From: Daucus carota subsp. sativus
Taxonomy: Eukaryota; Streptophyta; Magnoliopsida; Apiales; Apiaceae
Length of the DNA stretch: 64,000 nucleotides
Reading direction: 5' to 3'
Assembly (NCBI RefSeq): GCF_001625215.2
Contig: NC_030387.2
Coordinates: 38,029,606-38,093,605, forward strand
Positions 1 to 48,498 of the stretch are shown piece after piece (within the stretch, counting starts at the first letter, position 1; the number at the start of each line of letters is the position of its first letter). Position numbers and translations under genes: made by a program. The notes beneath the pieces were generated by a model. It was not told the DNA's origin. It saw nothing but the letters and a program-made list of their open reading frames with translations, and made no database searches.

Positions 1-2710
1 CCTTTAGTGGGAGATGTTATTGACAACCAGAAGGACTTCTTTCGGAGGAACTGGTTTGAGGAGTTGTCGACAGCTGACGTGGATTCGGCTCATACTAGGG
101 GCGGGGTGAGGTACACATGGTTGTTTGAGACGTACGGAGCTGATCCCGGTCCTGATCCAGAGCGGATTCTCATCCACACGCAGGCCTATTTGTTCGTTGT
201 TGTAGGTGCTGTTCTTTTTCCTACTACTAGTAGGAATGTGGTGCATCCCCGGTATCTCCGCCATCTTCGCAGACTGAGGGAGATTCCTACATGGTCTTGG
301 GGTTCGGCAGTTCTGTCTTACTTGTACAGGGGGTTGTATCACGCCACACAGAAGGATGCCAAGAAGATATCAGGTTGTGTGTGGTTGTTGATGCTATGGT
401 CTTATGAGAGGTTCGAGATTGGTAGACCTATTCCCGATGAGAGCAGGGGCAGCTATCCGGTAGCTGAGTTTTGGGCTATGCCTGACGAGGATGAGGAGGA
501 CGAGGGTAAGGGGAAGAAGGGGAAGGTGGAGGGTAAGGGGAAGGGGAAGGGGAAGGAAGAGGCGAAGGGGAAGGGGAAGGGGAAGGAAGAGGTGAAGGGC
601 AAGGGGAAGGGGAAGGAAGAGGGGAAGGGGAAGGGGAAGAGGGGTAAGGGGAAGGGGAAGGAGCCTGATATTCCCGAGGAGATTGAGGAGGAGGAGGAGA
701 TTGAGGAGCAGGGCTGGATTGTGGGTGGGAAGAGGAAACGGGTTAGGCGTGACAGTAGAGCGGCGCCTCATCATAGCTTGCCACATTACAGGGGTGAGTT
801 TGATGGAGTAGCATCAGACGTAGTGAGTTGGACACCCTATTCCGAATTTCATGAGATGGAAGGGGATTCGGATGGGGATCATGACATATCTGCAGAGGAT
901 TGGGAGGCTCGTTATGCTGGCCTTGCTCGGGTCCCATTAGTTCATTATGACATAGTGGAGTATCAGCATTCAGATAGGGTGTTGAGACAGTTTGGTTTGA
1001 GGCAGCCTATTCCCCCCCCTCCGGTATCCATGACTCGGTACAGGCAGGAGAAAGAAGCCTTTCACTACACTGATTGGCGTGCTGTATGGTTTGCTGAGAT
1101 CGGAGAGTGGGAGCGTTTTGTGGATCACCCCGAGGTTGTGGTGGCTCAGCATTCACTAGACACCGATGACACAGGTTACTTGGACTGGTACGAGCACATT
1201 TCCAGGCGCCGCGTTGGGAAGCCACAGCCTGTGCCACAGCCGCAGTATTCCACCAGGGAGTTGTTTGACAACCTTCAGGCATTTCAACTTGTAAGTTTGT
1301 TTACCCTTTCATAGTACTAAAGTTAAGCTTCCTTTATTCGTACTTTGTATGTATCTAATTTCATGACATCAAACTATCTGCAGATTCAAAAGGGTTTGGA
1401 ATGCCTTAAGGCGATTGATTCAACCATCCCTGAAGGCTATCGCGAGGAATTTAGAGAGATTGCCCCGATATTTGTCGAGCCGTACTGCCGTTTCATGCAA
1501 CAGCTCAAGGGCCCAGCATACACCCCTCCTGTTTTCGACCATGTCCATCTATCGGCTGTGGCAAAGAGGCCAACTGTTGCAGACGTCTCCCCCCATGACA
1601 TCATTGATATGACACAGCCGTCTCAGCAGACTACACAGGTCCCTACTCAGCCTATTGTTCCCGCATCACAGGCCACTTCCTCGAGGCCCGAGAAGATGGA
1701 TGTTCGTAGGCCTGGTGAACAGAAGTGGCTGATAAGTAAGAAGCTTTCAGAGGAGAAGATGGCCGCCATTAGGAGAGACTGGGGATGGGTACGAGGTCAG
1801 CCTGTGGGGCTTCGGGGTGGAATTAAACATGATCTCATGTTCAATTTGGCGGAGAATTCAATGCAGAGCTTGGCACCCGGTGCTTGGATAGATGACCGCA
1901 TCATATACGGATACATGGTACTATTTCATTTGTGGTGCCGGTCTACATTTAAATTGTGTTGCCTTTATTTATTTTGTAAATAACCTATGTTAATTCCTTG
2001 CAGTGGTTGTTACGTGAGCGGGAAGAAGCTATTGCCGCTGCAGGAGTGTATCCGAGAAAGCCGTCTTACTACTTTATGGATCCATTTTTCATTACATTGG
2101 CTATGGAGCTGGATTACAAGGTTCTCACGGAGCGGGTTAAGCGTTTCTTCGTTACGTGGGGTAGTTGTGGGATTGGTCCACCAATCAACGAAGTGGACTA
2201 CATATTTGTCCCGGCCAATGTTAATGGGAATCACTGGATTTTGATGGTATTGTCAGTGAAGGAATGGGGCGTCATGGTGTTTGATCCTATGACCAACAAA
2301 GCTGAACATGCGAAGGAAGAACAATGCGTGGTATGTGATCCGTTCCTTCTTTTTTCTTATATCAATTTGAAGTCTCGTTCATTTCATCTATATTTTGTTG
2401 ATTGTGTTTTTAGGTTGGACTGTTGGCGAGGATGCTTCGTTATCTTGGCCCCCGACTTACTGTGCCGAAGGAGGACCCTCTAGTCCAGGTCTGGGATGCA
2501 ATGCCGAAGCAAAATAACTACACTGATTGCGGGGTTTATATTTGCAAGTATATGGATTATCTCTTGCAAGGATATGACCTCTCTACCTTGGTGTGGGACG
2601 CTTCAGACCTCGAGGTCTTCCGTTACAGGATTGCCAAGGAGCTTCAGAAGGGGAAAGCAAGATCCATCCCAAACCACCGGATGAGCCAGAGGGTCTCGCA
2701 GCAAGATTAG
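1..2710 (+). CDS. Plant mobile domain / C48 Ulp1-like protease fusion (5' end outside window)
   Basis: Four exons with clean GT-AG junctions and matching phase: up to 1290, 1384-1917, 2004-2330, 2414-2710 (stop TAG). The frame is open to the left edge, so the start codon is not visible. The N-terminal part (about 7-460) resembles the plant mobile domain (PMD, aminotransferase-like) found in transposons and a few domesticated plant genes. A lysine/glycine-rich linker follows (about 505-665). Exons 3-4 carry a Ulp1/SENP-type C48 cysteine protease core: His in NGNHW (2232-2234), Asp in VFDPM (2283-2285), Gln in PKQNN and Cys in DCGVYIC (2528-2530), in the family order H-D-Q-C. C48 enzymes cleave SUMO or related modifiers; plant transposons often carry PMD-C48 genes of unknown use. 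No stop or frameshift is seen in the visible part, so it may be translated. I treat it as transposon-encoded because of its context, not as a housekeeping SUMO protease. Confidence 0.82.
505..665 (+). repeat. GK-rich coding minisatellite in the PMD-C48 gene
   Basis: Purine-rich tandem repeat built from AAGGGGAAGGGG-type units with recurring GGAAGAGG spacers. It encodes a very basic Lys-Gly linker with Glu-Glu interruptions, then an acidic run (668-710). The opposite strand is a shadow frame rich in Leu/Pro codons. Such a slippage-prone stretch probably varies in length between copies. Confidence 0.85.
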
Positions 2711-3160
2711 GACTTTTATTTATTTTCTTATTCTACGAGGATTTGTAGGGAATTAATTGAACAATGATATCATGTAGTTAAGATTGGTTTAATATTTATG
2801 AATGAAACATTTGTTTGCGTTTATATCGGTCGTTCATCGACCGTGTCACTTCCCCGATTCCCTTTTATTTATTTTAGAATTTGTGGTTGTTATGTGCTTT
2901 TCCCCACCCCTTTTACTGTGTTGCATTTGGAATTTCATTATATATGTTGTCATTTAATTTGGTATTTTTTGGAGATACTTCATTTTTTGGAGTTTTGAAA
3001 ATTTTGGCGATTTGGGTCACATATTTGGCCTTTTTTAAATTTTGTGAAATATTTTTTTTGGATTTTTTACACTGCAATGTTGTTGAAAGTGTTGGGATTG
3101 TTATACAGGGGTTCAAAACAGGTGGGAATGTGCAGGAACAGACTGCATATTTCAAAATTT
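2711..3160. other. 3' flank of the PMD-C48 gene
   Basis: AT-rich, non-coding. Presumably holds the 3' UTR and polyadenylation region of the upstream gene. Short reading frames here have no recognisable domains and are not called. Confidence 0.5.
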
Positions 3161-3248
3161 CTTTCTGATAGTTCCGCGGAAAATAACCGCGGAACGTGTG
3201 TTTTCTTCTAGACGTTCCGCGGTTATTTTCTGCGGAACTATCAGAAAG
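3161..3248. repeat. Near-perfect 37-bp-arm palindrome carrying CCGCGG motifs
   Basis: Arms 3161-3197 and 3212-3248 are reverse complements with one mismatch (CCGCGG against CTGCGG), separated by a 14-nt loop (3198-3211). Each arm holds TCTGATAGTTCCGCGG and CCGCGGAACGT. The same words recur at 7013-7131, beyond the transposase pseudogene, so these look like transposon termini rather than a host hairpin. The palindrome lies between convergent genes. Confidence 0.85.
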
Positions 3249-3660
3249 AATTTTTTTTTTTTTACCTTCCTTTTAACTGCCAAGACTGTTTTAAGACAGC
3301 ATATGGGGGTCCTTAAGTGTGTTATGACTTATAAAGTATGATACAACTATATTTGGATACTCAAAACCAATCTATTTGAAAATGACCATTACCGCCATTT
3401 TTCCGAACTTTGCATTCAAGTTGCCGCTACTAGCCACATTCAACTATTTTAAAAAAATTAGAGTAGACTAGAATCATCATAATTGAGGTAGTCCGAACAC
3501 CCACTGTAATTTTAACATAACTACCAATGAGAAAATAATTAGTGCATAATATTGTCATTTTAATGTTAATAATACATCGAATGGTGTGTAGTAAAGTACG
3601 TTTACACCAAAATACATATAAAACCTAAATTCAACATGATTCAGGTACGTCGGAAGCTAA

Positions 3661-4425
3661 CTAACTAAAAATCGCTAAAATGTTGGAGAAGCCACCCGAT
3701 AATCGGTGCGTGGAAGTTCCGGGCGGTGCATCAGCTCTAACGAAGCATGCCACCCAATACAGCACGACAACACAACCTTCACGGAGCACACCATCAGTCA
3801 CATTGGCATGAGTATTGTGGTCATTCCATATTGTGACACGAATGCTACTAGACCCATCATAGAGACGAAATGTTGCAAATGGTGCTTTGCCGGTAATCCA
3901 TTTCCCCGTATCATCACCATCTAGATGGGACACCCAACCCTTCACATATTCAATACGCATTTGGTCACGCATGCAACCCGCGCGAGGCCTCAATTTGTGA
4001 ATGTCGGCTATCCTATCACACTCAACAATCCAACCACCATCCCACGGGGAGACTTTGTTTGGGCCACCGGGGTGCTCCTGACCCAAGTTCAAAATTGGGA
4101 GAAAATATGGGGTCAAGTTGTACGCCACCCTTTCGAACATGTTATCGCTTGCACACCACTGACATGCTTCAGTCCAACATCTTGACCGGTAGGCCTCTTC
4201 GTCAGCTGGGTACAACGCATTGTCTTCTTCTTCCACTAGGGGAGGTGGTTCGTACATTTCTGCTAATTCGTCAAGATGACGCCATGCTTCCTCCAACTCA
4301 CTAAAGGTAGGTGAATCTACCATTTCATCCGAGTCCGAGAATGAATTGCTTACGTGTGACACTGAGTCATTATCCGAAGCGTCGGTCATTTTACCTACAA
4401 ATTCAACAATGAACAAGTTAGTCAC
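3661..4425 (-). CDS. Transposon accessory ORF with apparent OB fold
   Basis: 254 codons from the first ATG (4425). A second ATG at about 4389 (MTDASD) follows a TTTGTAG/GTAAAATG context that could be a splice acceptor, so the start is uncertain. The N-terminus is acidic and Ser/Asp-rich. The C-terminal third (about residues 158-230) has an OB-like pattern: VKGWVSHLDG, then FATFRLYDGSSSIRVTIWN, then LREGCVVVLYWVACFV. This resembles the strand order and 'LxDxxxxIxVxxW' signature of RPA-type nucleic-acid-binding folds. That assignment is inference from pattern, not a known family hit. The ORF begins 58 bp downstream of the transposase stop, on the same strand, so it may be an accessory gene of the same MULE, comparable in position to second genes of autonomous Mutator elements. 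It is uninterrupted while the transposase is broken. Confidence 0.6.
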   Translation of the reverse strand: MTNLFIVEFVGKMTDASDNDSVSHVSNSFSDSDEMVDSPTFSELEEAWRHLDELAEMYEPPPLVEEEDNALYPADEEAYRSRCWTEACQWCASDNMFERVAYNLTPYFLPILNLGQEHPGGPNKVSPWDGGWIVECDRIADIHKLRPRAGCMRDQMRIEYVKGWVSHLDGDDTGKWITGKAPFATFRLYDGSSSIRVTIWNDHNTHANVTDGVLREGCVVVLYWVACFVRADAPPGTSTHRLSGGFSNILAIFS

Positions 4426-4483
4426 TAAAGTTAGTTACTACGAAGAACATATAAAGCACAAATAAAACATAAGGGATTTGTAA

Positions 4484-6826
4484 TTACAATTGGGCAGTTG
4501 AAGCTTTTGTTAAAGTATCTTGTTTTTTTTTCGGACACGTTCTAACATCATGTCCTAACATAGTGCAATAGCGGCATTTTCTTTTTGCTTTTGTAAGTTC
4601 CTCAAGTGGACTTTTATGACGGTGCTCTTTTTTCCGCCCCTTCGTTTTCGACACCAAGGGGTCAAGGATATTCTCATGCAACTTTTCACCGCTTCCTTGT
4701 GTTGTTTGTGTATTGAATTCACCTCCTTCACGTTCTACCCCGTCAACGGGCATTTTCTCAATAATCTCCGTTTCTCGATTAATAACCCCAACGGCATATT
4801 CATACCGCTCTTTCGACGCGGAGCAACTATGACTAAAAGCCATGGTAAGTAAGGTCATGTGGTTAAATCTTTCCGTGGGAGTCAACTCATGAGATGGTGA
4901 TTCAACTTCGGATGTTTGATATGGCAACACGCCATCAACTCTATTGGCATCCTTTGTCCAACGCCGTTTCACAAAATGTTCCGGTAGTTCCGCCACACAC
5001 CTCTTCGTCAACACGACAATAATGTGACGGCATGGCATGCCAACATGGTCATACATTCTACAAATGCATGAACCCCGTAATGACACCTTGTTGAATGATA
5101 CAAGATACATGGTTCTCTGAGATGCACCCGTCAACGGTCTATAACATTTGTAGAATGTGTCTTCAACATCTTCCAAAGACCGATCTCTATCTTTCTCCAC
5201 GAAGTACTTATTTGCTTCAACCAATTGTTCTTGAAATCTTCGAAACATTTCTTTGGTATAAATGGAAGCCGCGTGGTGCTCCAAGGCGGATTTCATTTGC
5301 ATGCAACGACTTCTATGATACGTATTGTAATCCTCATCTTTCTCACGCATAAATTGCCTCTCAAAAGCTTTTTGTGCACCCTCAACAAAATCCTTCAAAC
5401 CGGTGCAAGAACCAACATAGGCATCAAAATAGGCATTCATTCCTTCACTTCTTGATGTGGTTTTCTGACCCGCAGAAAAAGTGTTTCTTGTGTAAGCCTC
5501 CACCCACTTATGCTTCAAAGCATATAACCCTTGAAGCCATGTATTGCCTTCCAAATTGTATTTCAAAATCAAAGCCTTCCACCGATCCTCAAACACAACT
5601 TCAGTCAAAGAGTGATAGATGCAATTGTTGAAATCAAATTTAAACCCTTCCTTTGAGTAATATGTTGCAAGTTTCTCGGGGAATTTGTTGCTAATGTGTC
5701 ATGAGCATAACAAATGTGAGGTATTCGGTAGTTGTGATTCAATAGCCGCGGCCATGGCTTGATCTTGATCGGTTATGATAGCTAGGGGTTCGTTGCCTTC
5801 CATCGCCTCTAGCCAAGTACTCAAAACCCACTCAAAAGTTGTCTTCAATTCATCCCGCACGAGTGCAAAACCAAAAACTATTGATTGATAGTGATGATTG
5901 ACTCCGGTGAAAGGCACAAACGGCATAGCATATCTATTAGTTCGATATGTTATGTCAAACGCAACCACATCACCAAAATTTCGATAGGCCATCATAGAGC
6001 GTGGATCGACCCATACAAGACACTTCAATCTTTGTTCGTCATCAAGGAGAGTCTTGATAAAAAACTTACCGCCACTCTCTTCTTTCAAACGATACAACAA
6101 ATCCAAACCGGCTTGAGCATCGTTTACTCCCATGTTGTCCTTTCTAAAATCGCGCACGACATTTCTTAAATGTTGGCTATTAAAACCTACTTGTTCCACT
6201 CCCCCGTGCATTTGACCAAAAATATTCATTTGTTGTCTTGGTGGGACACCCGAAGCATGTAAGGTCTTGATTAAATTTCTTTGAGCCGCGGTCACATGTC
6301 TCTCCCGTCTTATCAAACTCATCTTGGAAGGAGTAACGACTTCGTGATTGTGTTCTAATTCCAAAGAGGTTATCTCCCAATGAGTTGATTTTTTCTTATT
6401 AACCACGTACATTCTAACTTTGCAACCACTTCTAGGCAGCACATCTCTACGCCGTTTGCCCTTAACACTCCCAACACTACCAATCAATATTTCTTCTTCC
6501 TCAACGGGGTTTTTCCCGCGATTTTCCCCCGCTAAATTACAGACGTACATTCGACCATATATGGATTTATCCTTGACTCGCCTCTGCGTGTTTTGTATCT
6601 TAATTGCAAAACCATGGTTTATAGCATACGCCCTAAATAAATTTTCCGCCCTTTGTAAATTAGCAAATTTTTAATTCAAGCAAGGGATATTATCATCACT
6701 ATCAACATTAACATAATCAATATTATCTCTATCATTACCACATTTACCATCATCATCATATACATTAACATAATCACTTTTTTTTAAACTTTTTCTACCT
6801 TCAAATCTTGCAAACATCTTATCCAT
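4484..6826 (-). pseudogene. FAR1/FHY3-like MULE transposase with two in-frame stops
   Basis: One continuous frame of 781 codons from ATG 6826 to stop 4484, broken only by TAA at 6671-6673 (codon 52) and TGA at 5699-5701 (codon 376). Visible domains in order: FAR1 DNA-binding region (about 53-165, with the C-x-M...EHNHE zinc-binding pattern); MULE transposase core with Asp in AFDITYR (about 291) and Asp in IITDQDQA (about 353), and a candidate acidic residue in TSRSEGMN (about 461); SWIM zinc finger CIC...MPCRH (about 587-600); and a C-terminal CCHC knuckle CRYC...GHDVRTC (about 751-764). The TGA sits where the family has a conserved Trp (LxCxWHI). FAR1-like host factors descend from such transposases; the stops and terminal repeats here favour a decayed transposon copy. 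An alternative is sequencing error or stop readthrough. Confidence 0.88.
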
Positions 6827-7012
6827 TACAACACAACAAAATAACAACAACACACCACTACAAATGGAGCTTACCCAAGGGAAGGATGGGTCTTGGAAGA
6901 GAGAAATGAAGATACTCTGCTGCTCAAAATGCTCAAAATGCTGAAATGGGGATTTTTTGGAATTGAAGTGTTGAATGATCACATCTAGGTTATTGATCAT
7001 ACACTGCACCCG

Positions 7013-7131
7013 TCTGATAGTTCCGCGGTTATTTACCGCGGATCGCTTAAAAAAGTCCCGACGATCCGCGGAAAAAATACGCGGAACGCATGTTCAAAAC
7101 ACCCCATCCGCGGAAAAAAACCGCGGAACGT
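7013..7131. repeat. Right terminal repeat block of the MULE-like element
   Basis: Begins TCTGATAGTTCCGCGG, like the palindrome arm at 3165-3180, and ends CCGCGGAACGTT, like the other arm. Between them are further CCGCGG copies, including an inverted pair built on CCGCGGATCG (7036-7045) and CGATCCGCGG (7062-7071). Read inward, the far edge resembles the 3212-3248 arm, as expected for an element end. Repeated CCGCGG words may be transposase-binding sites. Confidence 0.7.
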
Positions 7132-7150
7132 TAAAAATATTTTCTTTTAC

Positions 7151-7232
7151 CCCAGCCGTTGGATCAACGATCCAACGGCTGGGAAGCCATGTGTTGGATA
7201 ACTGTTCCCTGACACACAGTTATCAGGGAACA
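7151..7232. promoter_or_regulatory. Two short perfect inverted repeats upstream of the J-protein gene
   Basis: CCCAGCCGTTGGATC (7151-7165) pairs with 7169-7183 over a 3-nt loop. TGTTCCCTGA (7203-7212) pairs with 7223-7232. They lie directly between the transposon end and the TATA box, and could be transposon remnants or promoter elements. Confidence 0.6.
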
Positions 7233-7251
7233 GGACCCATCCATAAAATAC

Positions 7252-7260
7252 TATATATAG
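7252..7260 (+). promoter_or_regulatory. TATA box of the J-protein gene
   Basis: TATATATAG lies 71 bp upstream of the ATG at 7331 and is followed by an A/C-rich leader typical of plant genes. It is the only strong TATA motif between the transposon end and the start codon. Confidence 0.75.
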
Positions 7261-7330
7261 ACACAAACTCCACACAGAGCTTCCAAACCTTCTTAACTAA
7301 CTCTACAAACAAACAAACAATACACACATC

Positions 7331-7834
7331 ATGACCTCTGCTTCTATTTTAACCTCTCATCCTCTCATCTCCCCTCTCTCGCCGTCGTTCACACATTCCG
7401 GCGACCACAGACAACTTCCGGCGACGAATCTCCGGTTCTCAAAGCCACGTGTCACCTCCTCCGCTACTTCATCTGCCGAGAAAACGAGATCGTACAGTAC
7501 CAACACATTTCAGGCGGCGAACACGGCGGTGTCTCTGTATCAGATTCTAGGTATTCCGATGGGAGCTACCGGAGTTGAGATCAAGTCGGCGTACCGGAAA
7601 TTGGCGCGGACTTGCCATCCTGATGTTGCGCAGGTGAAGAGTGCGTCAACGGAGGAGTTTATAAAGATTAAAGCGGCGTATTCGACGCTGTCTGATCCGG
7701 AGAAACGCGCGGATTATGATCGAACGATTTTCCGGCGGCATCGGTCGGTGTTGTCGTCGCAAGAGCCGGCGTATTCCAGATTTCGAGGTAGCGGATATAC
7801 GAGCCGGAATTGGGAGTCAGATCAGTGCTGGTAG
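7331..7834 (+). CDS. Small chloroplast J-domain protein (DnaJ11-like)
   Basis: Intronless, 167 codons, stop TAG at 7832-7834. Residues 1 to about 60 are Ser/Thr-rich with few acidic residues, like a plastid transit peptide. The J domain spans about 68-131, with SLYQILGIP opening helix I and the essential HPD at 96-98 (TCHPDV), then KIKAAYSTLSDPEKRADYDR. There is no Gly/Phe region or zinc finger, so it is a minimal type-III (DJC) J-protein; the size and intronless form fit the DnaJ11 chloroplast group. J-proteins stimulate Hsp70 ATPase activity; the client in stroma is not known from sequence. The gene starts only about 200 bp from the transposon end at 7131, so its promoter is short or partly transposon-derived. 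Confidence 0.92.
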   Translation: MTSASILTSHPLISPLSPSFTHSGDHRQLPATNLRFSKPRVTSSATSSAEKTRSYSTNTFQAANTAVSLYQILGIPMGATGVEIKSAYRKLARTCHPDVAQVKSASTEEFIKIKAAYSTLSDPEKRADYDRTIFRRHRSVLSSQEPAYSRFRGSGYTSRNWESDQCW

Positions 7835-35400: not shown

Positions 35401-37211
35401 TTAGGCTTTCAGGTACTTGACCAAGCTCTTGAAATTCTCATGAGAAGAACCACCTAGGCTTACACTCTTTTTAGCATCCTCCATCAGCTTGATGGCATTT
35501 ATCTTCATTTCATAATTGGTTAATAGATTATGAATCTTTGTCTTGATCTCATGTCTCGATATGATCCCATCTTCATCATATTTAACTGCTAACCCAACTT
35601 TCCACACGTCACAGATATATTTCTTATTATCAAATTGATCCCATACATAAGGCCAGCACAAAAACGGTACACCATGGCTTATTCCCTCTATTGTTGAGTT
35701 CCAACCACAATGAGAAAAGAAACAAGAAACTGAAGAGTGAGCAAGAACCTTTTCTTGAGGTGCCCATTCAACAATCTTTCCTCGACCAGCTATTCTTTCC
35801 AGAAAATTGTTAGGGTAGTACTCGGGAGATGATCCACTGACAATGTTTGGTCGTACAGCCCACAAAAATGAGTAACCAGATAGTTCAAGACCAAATGCTA
35901 TTTCATTAAACTGCTTCTGGCTAAACATTGTGGTGCTGCCAAAAGCAATGTAAATAACTGAGTTTGAAGGTTGTTTGTCTAGCCAGCTTAAACAAGTTGA
36001 ATCCTGAGACGAAAAAGATCCACTACAAGGATTTAAGTTACTTATCGCAGGTAGAGGACCGATTGGGAGGATGTTAGGAATCATGGCACAAGAGGATGAG
36101 TCAAGTTCATAATATGTGTTGCACAGCACAATGGTTGGATTTTCGACAACTTGATTGATAGCTAGAGAAAAGTCAAAGAAAAATTTCTGTAAGGCTGGTT
36201 TACCAGGAGTGCTCCAAGTGAGCTCCCAGCTATTCCACACTGGAATTCCTTCTGATAAACAAATCAGCTCATTTTTTATTGTTGAACCTGAAGAAATTTT
36301 TAAAAACATAAAAAACTAGCAAATTAACTAATAAGGAATAAAAGCCCCATATACCACAATTTTCATAAGCAATGCCCAAATACCAAAATCGTGAAAAGTG
36401 ACCCAAAATATCACTTATTAACGCATGATAATCTACTGTTTTGATTTTTGGAGAAACACGCTATATCATGTTCGTTTAGATCTGAAAATCACTAGAAAAT
36501 ACTAGGCGATCTGGCATTTTTAGGTTTGAAACGTGACATGAAAAAGCATTTAGGGTTACAAAATGCTAGCGTTTTGAATTGAAAGCGGTTGGGCCATCTT
36601 CTCCTCCAACAATGATATTTGGGACATTTTTCCGGAAAAAATGGTAGCAAGGGTCAACACCCCTAATCAACAATGTCAATTATCTTTGTTTAAGAAATTA
36701 CATAGAATTTGTAGACGCTACACATACCATTTTCATCGATAACTCTTGCTTCTATAAGTGTCGGGATACGAAGTGCCAATGCCAAAGAAGCTGGTCCTGC
36801 TAGCCAAACTGCAACCTGTTTCAACCCCATGTTTCTCGCAACTTCTAATGTCCATCCAACTGTTAAATCCACCATGACACAAGTAATCGGCTCCTTATCC
36901 GACTGATTAATCTGCTCAATTAATTTTTCGAGATTTTTTGTCATCACCTTTTTAAGGCTATCCATTTCCACCGGTCCAAATCTTTCTTCAGGGTGCGACT
37001 CCATTCCGTCCCAATAAGAGACTAGCCTTATGGGACATTGTTCCTTGTCTGCTTCGGACATTGCAGCAAGAATTTTGGCTTCAACAAATTGTGAATTGGC
37101 AAATGTGGCCTTGATCCCATGATAAGCCAAGTTGTAGGCTAGTTTCATGAGCGGCTTGACATGGCCCTGTGCTGGTAATGGCACGACCAATACATGTTGC
37201 TGCAAGTTCAT
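35401..37211 (-). CDS. UDP-glycosyltransferase, UGT83A1-like (array copy 1)
   Basis: Exon 1 37211-36728, 440-bp intron, exon 2 36287-35401; 456 aa. Family-1 plant glycosyltransferases transfer a sugar from UDP-glucose to small acceptors (phenolics, flavonoids, hormones) in the cytosol; the acceptor cannot be told from sequence. Visible: catalytic His17 (AQGHVKP), partner Asp115 (VMVDLTVGW), and the complete 44-residue PSPG box from WAPQEKV to VWDQ, with Trp22, His19 and the final Asp-Gln typical of UDP-glucose users. The start was chosen to match MDLPQHV in the sister genes, 24 bp inside the longest frame. Copy 1 is the most divergent intact member (for example VWLAGPAS instead of VWPAGPAS). 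A hAT MITE lies at 37266-37566, next to the promoter. Confidence 0.92.
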
Positions 37212-37243
37212 GACTAATGACGCTAGGATTCTCAACTCAAACC

Positions 37244-37253
37244 TTTATATATA
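37244..37253 (-). promoter_or_regulatory. Candidate TATA box of UGT copy 1
   Basis: TATATATAAA on the minus strand, about 33 bp upstream of the ATG, which would leave almost no leader. UGT copy 5 has the same arrangement, so either very short leaders or another start is used. Confidence 0.45.
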
Positions 37254-37265
37254 AATTGATATACT

Positions 37266-37566
37266 CAGGGACGTATCCAGAAATTCAAACTTTTGGGGGC
37301 AAAGATTAAAGTAGGGGAATTTGTTTTGTTTGTGAAAAGAGATTAAAGTGGGGAGGGCAGGAGCAATGTTTGCTGCTTTTGATCTGTTTTGCCGTCTGTT
37401 ATTATTTTGGGTGTATCTTATTGTGAAAGAGTTGGGTTAGTATGCAACAATGGAACCCTAGCTACCTCCAAAATACACTGATGCTCCAACCAAGGGGCAA
37501 GGCTGTAACTCTGGAAAATCTAGTGAGAGCAAGTACCCTCACTGCCCCAGTTTAAATCCGTCGCTG
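37266..37566. mobile_element. hAT-type MITE in UGT copy 1 promoter
   Basis: 301 bp. Ends CAGGGACGTATCCAG and (inverted) CAGCGACGGATTTAA, flanked by an exact 8-bp duplication GATATACT (37258-37265 and 37567-37574). The insertion point is 55 bp upstream of the UGT copy 1 ATG and a few bases from its candidate TATA box. Confidence 0.88.
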
Positions 37567-37604
37567 GATATACTACAATTCTAATACAACGAAGGCATGA
37601 ATAT

Positions 37605-38220
37605 CGGAGTGTATTCAATTGATATTTTAAGGGATGTTTCTTCATTTATGAAATTTGCGTATATTCAACTCGATTTAGAAATATATATTTGTAACATTCA
37701 ATTGAGATTTTAAATTATAATGTAAAATATAGTGATATTCGGTTACGATTTTAACTTGTGCTTAAAGATGAAGTGGTATTTAATTATTATAATCCAGGGG
37801 AGTGTAATCAAATGGGATTTTAAGGGATTGTTACGAGTCTATAAAATTTAATGTATTGTATCTTATTTTGATTTTGTGCAAATTCATAATAAAATGTCCA
37901 AGAGTTGATAAGAGTTTTCGGAATTTAAGCACAATGCTTCACAATCTCAGAATTTTGATGGGATTTAAAAAAACTTAAAATACACTGAACAATCCCACAA
38001 AATTCATCATTTTATTAAGTCAAAAAAAATAATCAGAATTTAAATACCATCATATTTTAATGGATTTTAAATAATCACAATCGAATACTATCAGATTTTA
38101 AAGTATAATTTAAAATCATGATTGAATATCACCAGATTTTATAGCATAATTTGAAATACCAATTGAATTAATACCTCAAAATTCTATTACATTTTTTTAA
38201 ATCCGAGTTGAATGTACTCG
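37605..38220. mobile_element. MITE-like repeat, GGAGTGTATTC family
   Basis: Ends CGGAGTGTATTCAATTG and (inverted) CGAGTACATTCAACTCG, with the same ATTTTAAA-rich interior as 33311-33774. Its right end lies only 12 bp from the stop codon of UGT copy 2, so it probably supplies that gene's 3' UTR. Confidence 0.6.
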
Positions 38221-38232
38221 GATTTCATGAAT

Positions 38233-40038
38233 TTAGGCTCCTAGGTACTTGACCAAGCTCTTAAAATTCTCATAAGAACCACCACCGTGGCTTACACTCT
38301 TCTTAGCATCCTCCATAAGCTTCCTGGCATTCATCTTCATTCCATCATTTGTTACCAGATTATGAATCTTTGTCTTGATCTCATGTCTGGATATGATCCC
38401 ATCTTCATCATAATCAAGTCCTAACCCAACTTTCCACATTTCACAAATATATTTCTTATTATCAAATTGATCCCATACATAAGGCCAGCACAAAAAGGGT
38501 ACACCATTGCTCACTCCCTCCATTGTTGAGTTCCAACCACAATGAGAAAAGAAACAAGAAATTGAAGAATGAGCAAGAACCTTTTCTTGAGGCGCCCATT
38601 CGACAATCTTTCCTCGACTAGCTATTTTTTCCAGAAAATTGTCAGGGTAGTGCTCATGAGATGATCCGGTGACAATGTTTGGTCGCACAACCCATAAAAA
38701 CGAGTGGCCTGATAGTTCAAGACCAAGTGCTAATTCATCAAACTGTTTCTGGCTAAACATTGCTGTGCTGCCAAAAGCAATATAAATGACGGAGTTTGGA
38801 GGTTGTTTGTCTAGCCAGCTTAAACAAGTCGAATCCTGAGACAAAAAAGATCCACTACAGGGATTTAAGTTACTTATCGCAGGTAGAGGACCGATTGGGA
38901 GGATGCCAGGAATCATGGCACAGGAGGACGAGTCAAGTTCATAATACGTGTTGCAGAGCACAATGATTGGATTTTTGACAACTTGATTGATAGCTAGAGA
39001 AAAGTCAAATAAAATTTTCTGTAATGCTGGTTTACCAGGACTGATCCAAGTGAGCTCCCAGCTATTCCACACTGGAATTTCTTCTGATAAACAAATCAGC
39101 TCGTTTTTCATTGTTGAACCTGCAGAAATTTTTAAAAATATAAAAAGCTACCAAATTAACTAATCAAGGAGAAAAGGCCTCATATAACACAATTTCCAAT
39201 TGTGAAAAGTGACCCAAAATACCATTTATTAACACAAGATAATCCAGCGTTTTGATTTTTGGAGAAAAACGCTATACTTAGATCCAAAAAACATTACAAA
39301 ATCAAAATGCTAGACGATCTAACGTTTTATTGTTAAAACGGGACATGAAATAGCGTTTTGAAGTGAAAAAGTTGGGACATATTCTCCAACAGTGATATTT
39401 GGGGCATTTTCTACGGAAAAGTGGTAGTGAATGCCAACACTCCTCATCAAGAAGAAAATAAAGTGGAAGGTAGGGCCAACAGGCCCAACACTAGTGTCAA
39501 TGATTTTTGTTCAAGATATTACATAAAATTTGTAGACGCTACACATACCGTTTTCATCGATAACTCCTGTTTCTATAAGTTGTGGGATACGAAGTGCCAA
39601 TGCCAAGGAAGCCGGTCCTGCAGGCCAAACTGCAACCTGTTTCAGCCCCATTTTACGCGCAACTTCTAATGTCCATCCCACTGTTAAATCCCCAATGACA
39701 CAAGTAATCGGCTCCTTGTTATCCGACTGATTAATCTGCTCAATTAATTTTTCGAGATTTTTTGGCATCACCTCTTTAAGGCTAGCTATCAGCCGCGCAC
39801 CATTTCTTTCTTCAGCTGGACACGCCTCCAATCCGTCAGAGTAAGACACTAGCCTTATGGGACATTGTTCCTTGTCTGCTTCGGACATTGCACCAAGAAT
39901 TTTGGCTTCGACAAATTCTGAATTGGCAAATGTGACCTTGATCCCATGATAAGCCAAGTTGTATGCTAGTTTCATGAACGGCTTGACATGGCCTTGTGCT
40001 GGAGATGGCACAACCAGAACATGTTGCGGCAAGTCCAT
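38233..40038 (-). CDS. UDP-glycosyltransferase, UGT83A1-like (array copy 2)
   Basis: Exon 1 40038-39549, 429-bp intron, exon 2 39119-38233; 458 aa. His17 and Asp117 form the expected catalytic pair; the PSPG box (WAPQEKV to VWDQ) is complete. The first part of exon 2 is almost identical to copy 3, while the last part differs (for example GLDYDEDG against ALDCDEDG). Exon 1 has a small local change, EACPAEERNGARLIASL, relative to the EACPEERNGPGLITSL of copies 3 and 4. The intron shares an insertion-like segment (CGTTTT-rich inverted repeats) with copies 1 and 3. TATA candidate at 40115-40126. Confidence 0.93.
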
Positions 40039-40114
40039 GACTAATCACACTGCTTCTTTTTTCTCAGATGTATAGAATGATGTATGAACGGGTGATTGTT
40101 TTTGTTGTGTATAC

Positions 40115-40126
40115 GATTTATTTATA
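40115..40126 (-). promoter_or_regulatory. TATA box of UGT copy 2
   Basis: TATAAATAAATC on the minus strand, 77 bp upstream of the ATG. The same motif in the same position occurs in copies 3 and 4. Confidence 0.65.
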
Positions 40127-40430
40127 ATTCATGGGTATTAAAAGATTTGAAATCCAATAAAATCTTGTAGATTTTGCTGAATGTTTTTATTAAGATATGA
40201 TATTTTTGTAACTGTCCAACAAAATTTCCTGCTTCACATTATAATTTAATGTCAGATACTCAAATCCCAGATATTAAGATTTTATTATAATTTGCCTTCA
40301 AAAGAAAAGATTTTATTATAATTCTAAAAGTAATATGTATCTAATATTCAAGGTTATATTTAAGATTTTAAATATATGCTAAAATTATAAGGAAGAAAAC
40401 ATGATGGGAGTATTAACATATGAAACGTAA

Positions 40431-40800
40431 GAAGTGTATTCAAATGAGATTTTAATGGATTTTGTATAGTTCACGTATTTTAATAGATTGTATTTGATTT
40501 TGATTTTATACGGATTTTAGATAAAATGTGGCATAGTTGGTATAAAGTCTTTAAGATGTATGCAAAATGTTTCAACAAAAATTAAATATTTTAAAATACA
40601 TCTAAAATTTCATAAAATTCATCATCTTATGAAGTCTAAAAAATCCATCATCATTGAATACCATCAGATTTTTAAGAATATTAAATAATCTTAATTGAAT
40701 ATCATCAAAATTTTAAGTATAATTTAAAATCGTGATTGAATACTACCAAATTTTATAGTATAGTTTAAAATACTAATTAAATATTCCAGAATTTTACGGT
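40431..40800. repeat. GGTGTATTC-family repeat between UGT copies 2 and 3
   Basis: Starts GAAGTGTATTCAAATGAGAT with the ATTTTAAA/ATCATCAGA interior typical of the family; right end unclear. The matching spacer between copies 3 and 4 (from 43341) carries the same sequence, so it was copied with the gene. Confidence 0.55.
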
Positions 40801-40876
40801 AGACAATTTTTGTCCAATAACCAAATCCAAAACAAAACAACATGGAAGAAAATGGAAAATAAAGTCTTCAATGAAT

Positions 40877-42977
40877 TTAGGCTCCTAGGTACTTGACCAA
40901 GCTCTTAAAATTCTCATAAGAACCACCACCTTGGCTCACACTCTTTTTAGCATCCTCCATAAGCTTCTTGGCATTCATCTTCATTCCATCATTGGTTACC
41001 AGATTATGAATCTTTGTCTTGATCTCATGTCTCGATATGATCCCATCTTCATCACAATCAAGTGCTAACCCAACTTTCCACATTTCACAAATATATTTCT
41101 TATTATCGAATTGATCCCATAGATAAGGCCAGCACAAAAACGGCACACCATTGCTCACTCCCTCCATTGTTGAGTTCCAACCACAATGAGAAAAGAAACA
41201 AGAAATTGAAGGATGAGCAAGAACCTTTTCTTGAGGCGCCCATTTGACAATCATTCCACGACTAGCTATTCTTTCCAGAAAATTGTCAGGGTAGTACTCA
41301 TGAGATGACCCACTGACAATGTTTGGTCGCACAACCCATAAAAACGAGTGGCCTGATAGTTCAAGACCGAGTGCTAATTCATCAAACTGTTTCTGGCTAA
41401 ACACTGCAGTGCTGCCAAAAGCAATATAAATGACCGAGTTTGGAGGTCGTTTGTCTAGCCAACTTAAACAAGTTGAGTCTTGAGACAAAAAGGATCCACT
41501 ACACGGATTTAAGTTACTTATCGCAGGTAGAGGACCAATTGGGAGGATGCCAGGAATCATGGCACAGGAGGACGAGTCAAGTTCATAATACGTGTTGCAG
41601 AGCACAATGATTGGATTTTTGACAACTTGATTAATAGCTAGAGAAAAGTCAAATAAAATTTTCTGTAATGCTGGTTTACCAGGACTGATCCAAGTGAGCT
41701 CCCAGCTATTCCACACTGGAATTTCTTCTGATAAACAAATCAGCTCATTTTTCATTGTTGAACCTGCAGAAATTTTTAACATAAAAAGCTACCAAATTAA
41801 CTAATCAAGGAGAAAAGGCCCCATATAACACAATTTCCAATTGTGAAAAGTGACCCAAAATACTACTCCCTCTGTCCCACCCATTTCTTATCAAATGGGT
41901 TGGGCACGGAGGTTAAGAAATATGTATAAAATAGTGTTAAAGAGGAAGAAAAGTGGGTAAAGTGATGGGACCCATTGATTTTTAATGTATAAAAAGAAGA
42001 TAGTGGAGTAAAAGTAGTGTGAAAAGTGGAGAAGTGGTGGGACCCATTAATTATTTTTGGTAAGTTTTGAAATGTAAAGAATTGGGTGGGACACCCCAAA
42101 AAGGAAAGTGTAAAGAAATTGGTGGGACGGAGGGAGTATTTATTAATGTTAGATAATCCAGCGTTTTAATTTTTGGAGAAAAACGCTATACTTAGATCCA
42201 TAAAACATTACAAAATCAAAATACTTGACGATCTAACGTTTTATTGTTAAAACGTACGAGACATGAAATACCGTTTTGAAGTGAAAAAGTTGGGTCATCT
42301 TCTCCTACAGTGATATCTGGGGCATTTTCTCCGGAAAAAGTGGTAGTGGAGGCCAACACTCATCATCAATGAGAAAATAAAGTGGAAGGTAGGGCCAACA
42401 CTAATGTCAATGATTTTTGTTTAAGACATTACATAGATTTTGTAGAGCACATACCGTTTTCATCGATAACTCCTGCTTCTATGAGTTGTGGGATACGAAG
42501 CGCCAATGCCAAGGAAGCCGGTCCTGCAGGCCAAACTGCAACCTGTTTCAGCCCCATTTTACGCGCAACTTCTAATGTCCATCCAGCTGTTAAATCCCCA
42601 ATGACACAAGTAATCGGCTCCTTGTTATCCGGCTGATTAATCTGCTCAATTAATTTTTCGACATTTTTTGGCATCACCTCTTTAAGGCTAGTTATCAGTC
42701 CCGGACCATTTCTTTCTTCAAGGCTAGTTATCAGTCCCGGACCATTTCTTTCTTCAGGACACGCCTCCAATCCGTCAGAGTAAGACACTAGCCTTATGGG
42801 ACATTGTTCCTTGTCTGCTTCGGACATTGCAGCAAGAATATTGGCTTCGACAAATTGTGAATTGGCAAATGTGACCTTGATCCCATGATAAGCCAAGTTG
42901 TATGCTAGTTTCATGAGCGGCTTGACATGGCCTTGTGCTGGAGATGGCACAACCAGAACATGTTGCGGCAAATCCAT
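40877..42977 (-). CDS. UDP-glycosyltransferase, UGT83A1-like (array copy 3)
   Basis: Exon 1 42977-42455, 691-bp intron, exon 2 41763-40877; 469 aa, the longest of the array. His17 and the VIGDLTAGW Asp are present and the PSPG box is complete. Two peculiarities: an exact 36-bp tandem duplication in exon 1 (42685-42720 and 42721-42756) that inserts 12 residues (EERNGPGLITSL twice) without breaking the frame, and a Stowaway MITE in the intron (41866-42136). Exon 2 is a mosaic: its first part matches copy 2, while from about the SQDSTCLSW segment to the end it matches copy 4 nearly residue for residue. Upstream sequence matches copy 2. Confidence 0.92.
41866..42136. mobile_element. Stowaway MITE in the intron of UGT copy 3
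   Basis: 271 bp, termini CTCCCTCTGTCCCACC and GGTGGGACGGAGGGAG, flanked by TA (41864-41865, 42137-42138). Absent from the introns of the other copies, so it inserted after the duplications. Confidence 0.92.
42685..42756. repeat. 36-bp exact in-frame tandem duplication in UGT copy 3
   Basis: Two identical 36-bp units, 42685-42720 and 42721-42756, beginning AGGCTAGTTATCAGTCCCGG. It lies in the region coding for the loop between the N-terminal strand/helix units, before the MPKN segment. Confidence 0.95.
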
Positions 42978-43053
42978 GACTAATCACACTGCTTCTTTTT
43001 TCTCAGATGTATAGAATAATGTATGAACGGGTGATTGTTTTTGTTGTGTATAC

Positions 43054-43065
43054 GATTTATTTATA
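43054..43065 (-). promoter_or_regulatory. TATA box of UGT copy 3
   Basis: TATAAATAAATC on the minus strand, 77 bp upstream of the ATG, in a promoter nearly identical to that of copy 2. Confidence 0.65.
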
Positions 43066-43340
43066 ATTCATGGGTGTTAAAAGATTTGAAATCCAATGAA
43101 ATCTTGTAGATTTTGCTGAATGTATTTATTAAGATATGATTTTTTTGTAACGTTCACCAAAATATCCTGCTTCACATTATCATTTAATGTCAGATACTCA
43201 AATCCCAGATATTAAGATTTTATCATAATTTTGAAAGTAATATGTATCTAATATTCAAGATTATTTTTAAGATTTTAAATATATGTTAAAATTATAAGGA
43301 AGAAAACATGATGGGAGTATCTGACATATGAAACGTAAGG

Positions 43341-43960
43341 AGTGTATTCAAAAGAGATTTTAATGGATTTTATATGATTTACGTATATTAATATATTGTA
43401 TGTGATTTTGATTTTATACGGATTTTAGATAAAATGTGGCATAGTTGGTATAAAGTCTTTAAGATTTAAGCAAAATGTTTCAAAAAAATTTAAATATTTT
43501 AAAATACATCTAAAAATTTCATAAAATTCATTATCTTATGAAATCTAAAAAAATCCATCTAACATTTGAATATCATCAGATTTTTAAGGATTTTAAATAA
43601 ATTTAATTGAATACTCACTCTGTCCCTCTCATTTATTTACAGTACTATTTTGGGATGTCCCTCTCATTTCTTTACGTTACTATAAATAGTAAGTTTTTCT
43701 CATCATTACACCCACTATCTTCCCTTACTATCTCATATTTAACAATAAAAACTACTATTACATCCACTACTTTCCTCCACTATCTCAAATCTATTATTAA
43801 ATATTGATAGGTCCCACCACTTTACCCAATTTTCATCCAATTTTACTCATTTTTCATACATTGTCTTGGTCTACGTGTCCCCCTCCAATGTAAAATCATG
43901 ATTGAATGCTACCAAATTTTATAGTATCGTTTAAAATACTAATTAAATATTCCAGAATTT
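43341..43960. repeat. GGTGTATTC-family repeat with an inserted Stowaway MITE
   Basis: Same spacer repeat as 40431-40800, interrupted at about 43612-43893 by a Stowaway copy in the opposite orientation to 10226-10528 (CTCTGTCCCTCTCATTT ... GTGTCCCCCTCCAATGT). The MITE's outermost bases are missing on its right side. Confidence 0.65.
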
Positions 43961-44036
43961 TACGGTAGACAAGTCCAATAACCAAATCCAAAACAAAACA
44001 ACATTGAAGAAAATGGAAAATAAAGTTTCAATGAAT

Positions 44037-45609
44037 TTAGGCTCCTAGGTACTTGACCAAGCTCTTAAAATTCTCATAAGAACCACCACCTTGGCTCACA
44101 CTCTTTTTAGCATCCTCCATAAGCTTCTTGGCATTCATCTTCATACCATCATTGGTTACCAGATTATTAATCTTTGTCTTGATCTCATGTCTCGATATGA
44201 TCCCATCTTCATCACAATCAAGTGCTAACCCAACTTTCCACATTTCACAAATATATTTCTTATTATCGAATTGATCCCATAGATAAGGCCAGCACAAAAA
44301 CGGGACACCATTGCTCACTCCCTCCATTGTTGAGTTCCAACCACAATGAGAAAAGAAACAAGAAATCGAAGGATGAGCAAGAACCTTTTCTTGAGGCGCC
44401 CATTTGACAATCATTCCACGACTAGCTATTCTTTCCAGAAAATTGTCAGGGTAGTACTCATGAGATGATCCACTGACAATGTTTGGTCGCACAACCCATA
44501 AAAACGAGTGGCCTGATAGTTCAAGACCGAGTGCTAATTCATCAAACTGTTTCTGACTAAACACTGCTGTGCTGCCAAAAGCAATATAAATGACGGAGTT
44601 TGAAGGTTGTTTGTCTAGCCAGCTTAAACAAGTTGAGTCTTGAGACAAAAAGGTTCCACCAGAAGGGCGTAAGGTTCTTATCGCGGCTAGAGGACCGATT
44701 GGAAGGATGTTAGGAATCATGGAACAAGAGGAGGAGTCGAGTTCGTACCATGTGTTGCAGAGAACAATGGTTCCATTTTCAGCAGCAAATTTGACAGCTT
44801 GATTAATAGCTACAGAAAACTCGAACAGAGATTTTTGTAATGCTGGATTACCAGGTGTACTCCAAGTGAGCTCCCAGCTATTCCACGCAGGAATTCCTTC
44901 TGATAAACAAATCAGCTCATTTTTCATTGTTGAAACTTGAACCTGTAGAAATATTTAAAAACAGAAAAAGTTACTACTAAATTAACTAAGGGAAAAATAC
45001 TCATAAGAAGTACGTAGTACATATTGAGTACGTACTTAGGAGCATTAATCCCGTTAAATAATCAAGAATGTCAATAATTTTGTTTAAGACAAAATATAGA
45101 ATTTTGTACACACTAGACATACCATGTTCATCTATAACTCCTGTTTCAATAAGTTTCGGGATACGAAGTGCCGATACCAGAGAAGCTGGTCCTGCAGGCC
45201 AAACTGCAACCTGTTTCAGCCCCATTTTACTAGCAACTTGTAATGTCCATCCAGCTGTTAAATCCGCCATGACACAAGTAATCGGCTCCTTGTTATCCGA
45301 CTGATTAATCTGCTCAATTAATTTTTCTATATTTTTTGGCATCACCTTTTTGAGGCTAGTTATCAGCCCCGGACCATTTCTTTCTTCAGGACACGCCTCC
45401 AATCCGTCAGAGTAAGACACTAGCCGTATGGGACATTGTTCCTTGTCTGCTTCGGACATTGCAGCAAGAATCTTTGCTTCAACAAATGTGATATTGGCAA
45501 ATGTGACCTTGACTCCTTGATAAGCCAAGTTGTATGCTAGCTTCATAAGCGGCATTACATGGCCTTGTGCTGGAAATGGCACAACCAGAACATGTTGCGG
45601 AAACTCCAT
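44037..45609 (-). CDS. UDP-glycosyltransferase, UGT83A1-like (array copy 4)
   Basis: Exon 1 45609-45123, 187-bp intron, exon 2 44935-44037; 461 aa with that junction. His17, the VMADLTAGW Asp and the full PSPG box are present. The first half of exon 2 is distinctive (LAAIRTLRPSGG, and VKFAAENGTIV with four more residues than copies 2-3), but the second half is almost identical to copy 3. The acceptor is unusual: relative to its sisters the exon start carries 7 extra bases, so the conserved CTACAG/GTTCAA site would shift the frame; using the next AG (TTCAAG/TTTCAAC) restores it. If that weak site is not used the gene is non-functional. TATA candidate at 45689-45700. Confidence 0.85.
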
Positions 45610-45688
45610 GACTAATCACACTGCTTCTTTTTTCTCTCAAATCTATAGAATGATGTATGAACGGTTGATTCTTTTGGTGGTTTACACT

Positions 45689-45700
45689 GATTTATTTATA
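45689..45700 (-). promoter_or_regulatory. TATA box of UGT copy 4
   Basis: TATAAATAAATC on the minus strand, 80 bp upstream of the ATG, conserved with copies 2 and 3. Confidence 0.65.
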
Positions 45701-45719
45701 ATTCATGGGTATTAAAGAT

Positions 45720-46146
45720 TTGAAATCTAATAAAATCTTGTAGATTTTGCTGAATGTATTTATTAAGATATGATTTTTTTTGTAACGTCCAACAAAATAT
45801 CCTGCTTCACACTATCATTTGATGTCAGATGCTCAAATCCCAAATATTAAGATTTTATTATAATTTTAAAAGTAATATGTATTTAATATTCAAGATTATA
45901 TTTAAACGTATCGAGAGCCCATCTAGAAATTTTTTTAGTTTAACACTCATTAAGAAAATAACACCAGGAGAACAAACCACAACAAGCTTCTATCAACTAG
46001 AGGTAAAAAGATAGGCAACTTTAGATAATAACAAGCAGATTACTAGTAGACAGTTGATCATCACGCTAATGCATTTGTCCCATTTGTCGCTGAAAGTAAT
46101 CAAACCAGAACAAAAACATAGCAGCATTAACGCCCCTTTGATGAGT
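45720..46146. other. Spacer between UGT copies 4 and 5
   Basis: Left part (to about 45900) matches the upstream regions of copies 2 and 3, then diverges. No gene seen; it includes the 3' flank of copy 5. Confidence 0.5.
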
Positions 46147-47610: not shown

Positions 47611-47646
47611 GATCAATGACACTGCTAACTCACAACTAAAAACCTC

Positions 47647-47654
47647 TTTATATA
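47647..47654 (-). promoter_or_regulatory. Candidate TATA box of UGT copy 5
   Basis: TATATAAA, 37 bp upstream of the chosen ATG; implies a very short leader, as for copy 1. Confidence 0.5.
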
Positions 47655-48498
47655 GCAGTATTGCAAATTTGCAGTCAAGGCATGAAGCTGCATTGGTTGT
47701 TTATTACATTCAGATTTTAAAAAATAATAAATTCATAGGCTTAAAATATTTCGACTTGGAATCTAATAGCAGCTAACAAATTTCTCTGGATCTCTGAAAC
47801 AACTTTTGTTCTTCTGTAAAATCCAAGGAAAAATCGCGGCCTCACCAAGCCACTCCAAACTACCAGATTCCAACAGAATTTGTTATTATAATCATGATTG
47901 AATGAGACTAGTAGTATTTTTTGTTGAGGTTTGTTTTATAACTTTTGTTGTATTGAATCTATGTCTGTAATTGATAAACAAGGACTTGAGCATTATTCCA
48001 CTGTGATGGCTGCAATGAAGTTGAAGCCAAAGAAGGGACATTTGTCGCAACCTATCAGCAGGGTGCAGATGTTGGCAATCTGGATTTGTAACTTTGGACG
48101 GCCAGTCGGCCACCATTAGAATTTAGAACTACCCAAATTGCGCATAATATTTGAAATAATGAAAGATTTGCCAAGATAAGTGTGTGTACAAGTTGAAGCT
48201 GATAAATGTTGCAGCATGATGACAGAGGGAGGTTGATGGAAAGAGAAAAATATAACCAAATTACGGGCACTCTAAGACTCGAATTGCACCTTAATGCCTT
48301 CGGTTTGGAAGGTTTGGATCGGCTGGTTGATAATTATGATCAAGCCTAATTCTACGTTTCATGCTTAGAATCAGGTCATGTGATTTGTTTTGATGTGCCA
48401 CTTTCTAAACTCCATGTGATATGAGATAAAACATCATAAAAAAAAAAAAAACATAAATACATGTATATGGTTCCATCGGGCTAAAGTAATACAAATTT
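47655..48498. other. Spacer between the UGT array and the Helitron
   Basis: No gene is recognised. A 62-codon frame at 47931-48119 has no domain signature and is not called. Confidence 0.45.

Follow-up and report, generated by a model that had tools for sequence, protein, structure and literature searches.

The stretch of DNA analysed here, referred to as the window, comprises 64,000 nucleotides of carrot (Daucus carota subsp. sativus; contig NC_030387.2, positions 38,029,606 to 38,093,605). At its left end lie a gene that combines a plant mobile domain (PMD) with a C48 (Ulp1-type) peptidase domain on the forward strand and, on the reverse strand, an open reading frame (ORF) resembling OB-fold proteins and a FAR1/MULE transposase gene (Table 1). 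A preliminary description, drawn from the letters alone, had seen here either one composite transposon or two related elements sharing one type of terminus, and Pfam confirms its assignment of the PMD, C48 and transposase domains and their convergent arrangement. In the 441-Mb assembly, read with 10 kb of left flank, the PMD-C48, OB-like and transposase genes are parts of one terminal inverted repeat (TIR)-type Mutator-like element (MULE) that moves as a unit. The element begins 1,332 bp left of the window, ends at position 7238 and measures 8,571 bp in all, of which window positions 1 to 7238 are the right 84%.

The element is bounded by two TIRs of 231 bp, the right one with the outer end GGGTCCTGTTCCCTGA and the left one at -1332..-1102 (negative positions lie left of the window), where a single composite element had been expected to have its other terminus. 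A 9-bp target-site duplication, ATCCATAAA, is perfect on both sides. Because this one duplication brackets the whole, the PMD-C48, OB-like and transposase genes belong to one mobile unit, and transposase domain, long TIRs and 9-bp duplication together place that unit among the TIR-type MULEs. The near-identity of the TIRs suggests a recent insertion. Copies with the same gene set between the same ends were found at other loci, and the duplication is perfect in 10 of the 11 copies of families A, B and C in which both ends were checked. These are, in family A, the window copy, c3_40, c3_81, c5_13 (counted although the duplication lies inside an AT repeat), c6_186, c7_35, c7_144 and c1_197 (counted with its right end placed one base beyond the scripted position), together with c4_105 of family B and c6_558 of family C; in c8_15, of family B, only 6 of 9 positions match. 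The positions 3212 and 7131 were rejected as termini, the true right end being 7238 rather than 7131.

Table 1. Features of the element within the window (A and B, element families; dN/dS, ratio of nonsynonymous to synonymous change).
Feature	Position	Strand	Description
PMD-C48 exon 1, 3' part	1..1290	+	PMD and charged linker; Pfam PMD 3e-40; dN/dS 0.17-0.18, A vs B
PMD-C48 exon 2	1384..1917	+	no Pfam match; open between GT/AG sites read by eye
PMD-C48 exon 3	2004..2330	+	N part of Peptidase_C48, NGNHW and FDPM; Pfam 1.6e-9; dN/dS 0.08-0.10, A vs B
PMD-C48 exon 4	2414..2710	+	C part of Peptidase_C48, DCG, stop; Pfam 1.8e-6; dN/dS 0.08-0.11, A vs B
Internal palindrome	3154..3255		between the convergent genes; two 21-bp dyads, 3173-3193 and 3216-3236
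OB-like ORF	3661..4389	-	242 aa, intact; Pfam tRNA_anti-codon 2e-4, sub-threshold; dN/dS 0.31-0.35, A vs B
Transposase gene	4484..6826	-	Pfam FAR1 2e-15, MULE 2.6e-25, SWIM 2e-4; broken in the window copy; dN/dS 0.19-0.21, A vs B
Right TIR	7008..7238	-	231 bp; 99.1% identity to left TIR; dyad starts 7022, 7065, 7107
Target-site duplication	7239..7247		9 bp, ATCCATAAA; twin just left of the element, beyond the window

The PMD-C48 frame is open in the window copy and runs on to a start codon (ATG) at -350, left of the window. Its second exon has counterparts in copies from families A, B and C, and comparison of the translation with the motifs of the family indicates that the His-Asp-Cys catalytic residues of a C48 peptidase are present (NGNHW, VFDPM, DCGVY). 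A low-complexity repeat at 497-661 in the PMD exon encodes a Lys/Gly/Glu linker, and the length of this exon differs among copies. The transposase has FAR1, MULE and SWIM domains all above gathering threshold, and this domain content is the basis on which we class it as Jittery-like/FAR1-type. Two in-frame stops (5699-5701 and 6671-6673) interrupt the window copy, which also lacks, as does c7_144 in the alignment, about 130 bp near 6693 that sister copies carry; thus the term "intact-looking", used for PMD-C48 in the preliminary description, holds for PMD-C48 and the OB-like ORF and fails for the transposase. With its own transposase broken, the window copy could move only with help, and open transposase copies exist, since the gene is a single open frame of 812-842 aa in five sister copies. 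The OB-like ORF has 77 matches in the genome. No match to an RNA family was found in the window by Rfam at gathering threshold.

Besides family A, to which the window copy belongs, elements of families B, C, D' and D2 were opened, one each of the last three. The gene set is of long standing. Families A, B and C have a common layout of PMD-C48 (+), OB (-) and transposase (-), and this arrangement is still seen where protein identity has dropped to 33-46%. The C element is identical to A at 50% in PMD, 50% in C48, 45% in OB and 61-66% in transposase. The corresponding values for D2 are 40-45% in PMD, 33% in OB and 40-46% in transposase, with C48 in pieces and a foreign insertion between the genes. 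Across A, B, C and D2, the OB protein is 33-80% identical to that of the window. In the D2 element (C8:28896500-28909500), 116-bp tandem repeats that hold dyads, described below, flank both sides of a hAT-like ORF stretch (label by eye) between the PMD-C48 and OB genes. A scripted count from listed coordinates at 53 OB loci found a transposase gene no more than 9 kb upstream in the same orientation at 45, a convergent PMD at 34, a convergent C48 at 29 and all three genes at 23. Addition of previously dropped rows brings the transposase and PMD counts to 46 and 36, the added transposase row adjoining C5:20198214 and the added PMD rows adjoining or overlapping the OB matches C2:19618932 and C6:33992533.

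The sequence words noted earlier as shared between the middle of the element and its right edge are present, TCTGATAGTTCCGCGG at 3164 and again at 7013, CCGCGGAACGT at 3187 and again at 7121. Within the 64 kb, the cores GTTCCGCGG and CCGCGGAAC are confined to two clusters, one at the internal palindrome and one at 7013-7131, the inner right TIR; 8 of the 11 CCGCGG words in the window lie there. The first cluster, which would be a boundary at 3161-3248 in the earlier two-element reading, is internal to the element, and its palindrome is 84% symmetric over 102 bp and 95% over 44-bp arms. Both clusters hold dyads, which in one element from each of the five families follow a single rule, near one or both ends and between the convergent genes: a family-specific 7-bp half-site, a 7-bp spacer and the reversed half-site, where the half-site is TCCGCGG in A and B, CCAGCGC in C, TACGCTA in D' and TCAGTGG in D2. 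When pairs of half-site and reversed half-site were counted in these elements with one mismatch allowed in each and spacings of 0-20, spacing 7 occurred 8, 8, 9, 8 and 12 times in A, B, C, D' and D2, and all other spacings together 0, 2, 0, 0 and 0 times (45 of 47 pairs at spacing 7; scrambled half-sites gave means of 0-0.05). Two more A copies have eight pairs each, all at spacing 7. The dyads are distributed to the left of, between and to the right of the genes as 3/2/3 in A, 3/2/3 in B, 3/3/3 in C and 1/4/3 in D', with 7 between and 5 right in D2, and none was found in the coding zones of the five elements; the CCGCGG word by itself is seen in coding sequence, twice in the window copy.

Across the whole genome, a scan for TTCCGCGG-N5..9-CCGCGGAA found 75 places and its reversed control none, with a spacer of 7 in 50 of 50 among the matches listed; the C pattern was found at 160 places (control 0), and among 50 listed the spacer was 7 in 48 and 9 in two. 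Palindromes of B and C gave their best alignment scores with their own family's TIR, 57 and 93, whereas palindromes of A and B against the C TIR, and the C palindrome against the TIRs of A and B, scored 21-27, within the chance maximum of 28. Palindrome and TIR cross-matches between A and B, which share a half-site, score 38-45, near A's own 45-56. The D' palindrome had no match in the stretch taken as the D' TIR, which is mostly AT repeat.

Gene-less derivatives carry the same signals. One of them, 838 bp long and located on C2, contains six dyads and no internal array, and a perfect 9-bp duplication, ATGCATGAT, flanks it; another, of 885 bp on C7, contains five dyads, and its duplication falls within an AT repeat. 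In 13 of the 50 A-pattern places listed the spacer is ATAATAT or ATATTAT; three of these and one other were opened (L037-L040), and all four are short palindromic elements, miniature inverted-repeat transposable elements (MITEs) with an GGGTCCTG-type terminus, a central dyad and, apparently, two TIRs head to head. L038 is 316 bp long with a perfect duplication and L039 is 316 bp with a 6/9 match; the ends of L037 and L040 were not resolved. These MITEs may move in trans with the help of families A or B. Since gene-less derivatives have moved, the dyads in the TIRs go with movement, which does not require the internal array.

Judged by synonymous difference, the PMD-C48 and OB-transposase halves of the element have different histories. 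Between A and B this difference is 0.626 in the PMD-C48 half (bootstrap 0.580-0.675) and 0.252 in the OB-transposase half (0.219-0.287). In the window copy against c7_144 the halves again differ (0.078 and 0.020), whereas in the control pair, window copy and c1_197, they are about equal (0.124 and 0.116). An unequal mutation rate was dropped as the cause, because the halves are about equal against c1_197 and unlike against B. The 5' noncoding stretch -1101..-360 of the window copy is 56-62% identical to that of c5_13, c7_144 and c1_197 and, in longer alignments, 93-95% identical to that of c3_81 and c7_35. Such half-to-half differences can be read as an exchange of parts between copies. Noncoding identities flanking the palindrome (0.67 and 0.70, or by another alignment 0.745 and 0.716) do not place the break, so none is claimed there. 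In an evolutionary sense "composite" is a fair word for the element, given the separable histories of its halves and the existence of some elements without PMD-C48.

How such an element might work can be set out as follows. A family-specific signature of fixed geometry hints at a self-recognition system. We infer that the family-specific dyads in the TIRs are the sites to which the transposase binds in dimeric form; a dyad with a GC core would suit it, as FHY3 and FAR1 are reported, in the passages available, to recognise CACGCGC by means of the FAR1 domain and to dimerise (PMC6000157). The TIR arrays alone would suffice in cis for movement, as small gene-less derivatives with TIR dyads alone have moved. 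The internal array, lying between convergent 3' ends, would most likely serve gene expression, with an element-encoded protein bound to the middle of the element keeping both transcription units open or separated. By analogy with the VANC/KIU proteins, PMD-C48 most likely counters host silencing or sumoylation, and the OB protein would most likely be a DNA-binding accessory factor. Taken whole, a single unit with a dyad-binding transposase, an expression role for the internal array and accessory genes is probably the best explanation of the data. A more specific picture is put forward tentatively, and we do not favour it over its negation: a MULE lineage with a private, fast-switching 21-bp 7-7-7 dyad code, placed close to its ends and in the interval that separates the convergent genes, read by an element-encoded protein that would mobilise the element and shield its middle from silencing, and evolving by swapping of PMD-C48 and OB-transposase halves.

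The alternative that survives best, though it is somewhat unlikely, is that the internal palindrome is no more than a fossil, left by two elements that fused in an ancestor or by a nested palindromic MITE, and plays no part today. Palindromic MITEs with the same termini and dyads do exist (316 bp where ends were resolved, n=2), and additional internal TIRs are on record for some MULEs (PMC3310237, seen in part). Against this, each of the families A, B, C, D' and D2 has the same half-site in its internal dyads as at its ends, even as the half-site itself varies among A/B, C, D' and D2, and a fossil should keep the old motif. Gene conversion between TIR and palindrome could nevertheless produce the same pattern without function. 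Seven rows of the palindrome alignment were read by eye, leaving out c5_13 (in the wrong orientation) and c6_186 (with a partial palindrome): in c7_35 and c3_374 a change in one arm is matched in the other, which speaks against a fossil, yet changes are one-sided in c3_81, c6_188 and c7_144.

The dyads could instead be read by PMD-C48 (or by OB) as a sequence-specific anti-silencing factor similar to VANC, and not by the transposase, which we regard as unlikely. Like the dyads, VANC motifs are noncoding, family-variable and arrayed in the portions of PMC5735166 available, and D2 has its tandem 116-bp array between the genes. However, gene-less MITEs and short derivatives keep dyads, which fits a need in transposition, and one half-site is common to A and B, whose PMD-C48 genes have diverged much further than their transposases. 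That the OB and PMD-C48 genes are functionless captured host fragments, the cargo of a Pack-MULE, is very improbable: host-gene capture is frequent in MULEs (PMC2528002, in part), but dN/dS between A and B is well below 1 throughout, from 0.08-0.11 over the C48 exons upward, and the genes are present in A, B, C and D2. At the sensitivity of this search no host OB parent gene was found, the three stand-alone OB matches being fragments 81-97% identical to the D2 OB protein. Least credible of all is the two-element version of the preliminary description, in which a PMD-C48 element and an OB-transposase MULE sharing a terminus type abut at 3197/3212; the palindrome does resemble a right-type arm facing a left-type arm, the synonymous difference between the window copy and B is unequal (0.613 left, 0.245 right) and elements lacking PMD-C48 exist, but the palindrome lacks the outer terminus GGGTCCTGTTCCC (GGGTCC), one duplication surrounds the whole, copies at other loci hold both halves, family C has the same layout with a different motif, and a single alignment spans the palindrome in all 11 A and B copies examined (c6_186 keeping it partly).

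Several observations weigh against the preferred explanation of one unit whose transposase reads the dyads. The half-sites were picked from the same elements in which spacing was then counted, although spacing was left free. The older copy c1_197 has three pairs at spacing 7 and six at others, D2 has no dyad left of PMD in the stretch examined, and the outer ends of D' and D2 were not resolved. In the D' element PMD and transposase are present and no C48 or OB was detected; a 159-aa acidic ORF lies in the place of OB (L031, 4347-4823 in reverse-complement coordinates). At 12 of the 53 OB loci a transposase occurs without convergent PMD or C48, and at four none of these was found (11 and three with the added rows). 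Not every gene is therefore needed for survival. The OB fold itself is assigned from sub-threshold matches, so that the labels "OB-fold" and "putative single-strand-binding" of the preliminary description are provisional for this ORF: Pfam matches all fall below gathering (tRNA_anti-codon 2e-4 in A; HROB 0.02 in D2 and 0.08 in C), a profile search of PDB gave a non-OB protein as best match (E 0.93) and a replication factor A chain at E 1, and PDB sequence searches with this ORF returned no usable OB match. Within family A, dN/dS scatters on very few changes (1.06 for PMD between the window copy and c5_13; 0.04-0.43 for transposase).

Ulp1-bearing and PMD-bearing MULEs are already known, and comparison with them, from the passages available to us, indicates what may be new. 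Jittery-like MULEs of grapevine and melon (the melon work as cited in PMC2528002) likewise have a FAR1-type transposase with Ulp1/C48 downstream and 9-bp duplications where found; those passages mention no PMD-C48 fusion, OB-like ORF or dyad rule. The KAONASHI/VANDAL elements of Arabidopsis carry a transposase and further genes such as VANC or KIU, one of them a Ulp1-domain gene on the reverse strand (PMC5735166, PMC13317346, PMC2528002, PMC10398659), and the window element shares the position of a C48-domain gene opposite the transposase. Their noncoding DNA also carries short motifs that are specific to each family, in VANDAL elements arrays of YAGTATTAY to which VANC binds (PMC5735166), but they differ in having no TIRs and a mudrA-type transposase, with no PMD mentioned in those passages, whereas the element here has TIRs of 231 bp. 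PMD proteins have a role in silencing, and the domain has been captured by MULEs, those of grasses and Amborella encoding it as a fusion to the transposase (PMC5418596, in part) and not, as here, to C48 on the opposite strand. In multiple-TIR MULEs, TIR-like sequence including solo internal TIRs lies inside the element, as copies with at least 100 bp of similarity and mostly in tandem (PMC3310237, in part); here only the inner, dyad part is found, as a palindrome between convergent genes and in several families. No publication naming the combination of PMD, C48, OB and MULE or the dyad rule was found in a search covering mostly titles and the starts of abstracts, with subscription papers and Repbase thinly represented, nor one with both "plant mobile domain" and "Ulp1".

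On its right the window copy adjoins the upstream side of a DnaJ-domain gene (Pfam 3.5e-22; region 7239-7831). A TATA-like stretch at about 7248-7258 follows directly on the element, which ends 92 bp before the ATG of the DnaJ gene, and because of this position the right TIR may act on the DnaJ-gene promoter. Elsewhere in the window, positions 35401-47700 hold clustered UDP-glycosyltransferase-like genes in tandem (label by eye), where five pairs of long ORFs lie on the reverse strand.

MULE transposases are the source of the FAR1/FHY3 light regulators of plants, and the recurrence of one geometry with a changing motif in carrot elements would offer a direct way to learn how a FAR1-type DNA-binding protein shifts its specificity. 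The PMD, whose Arabidopsis members act in silencing, is here joined to a protease domain within a mobile element, and through the dyads TIR-type MULEs may have their own equivalent of anti-silencing by VANC.

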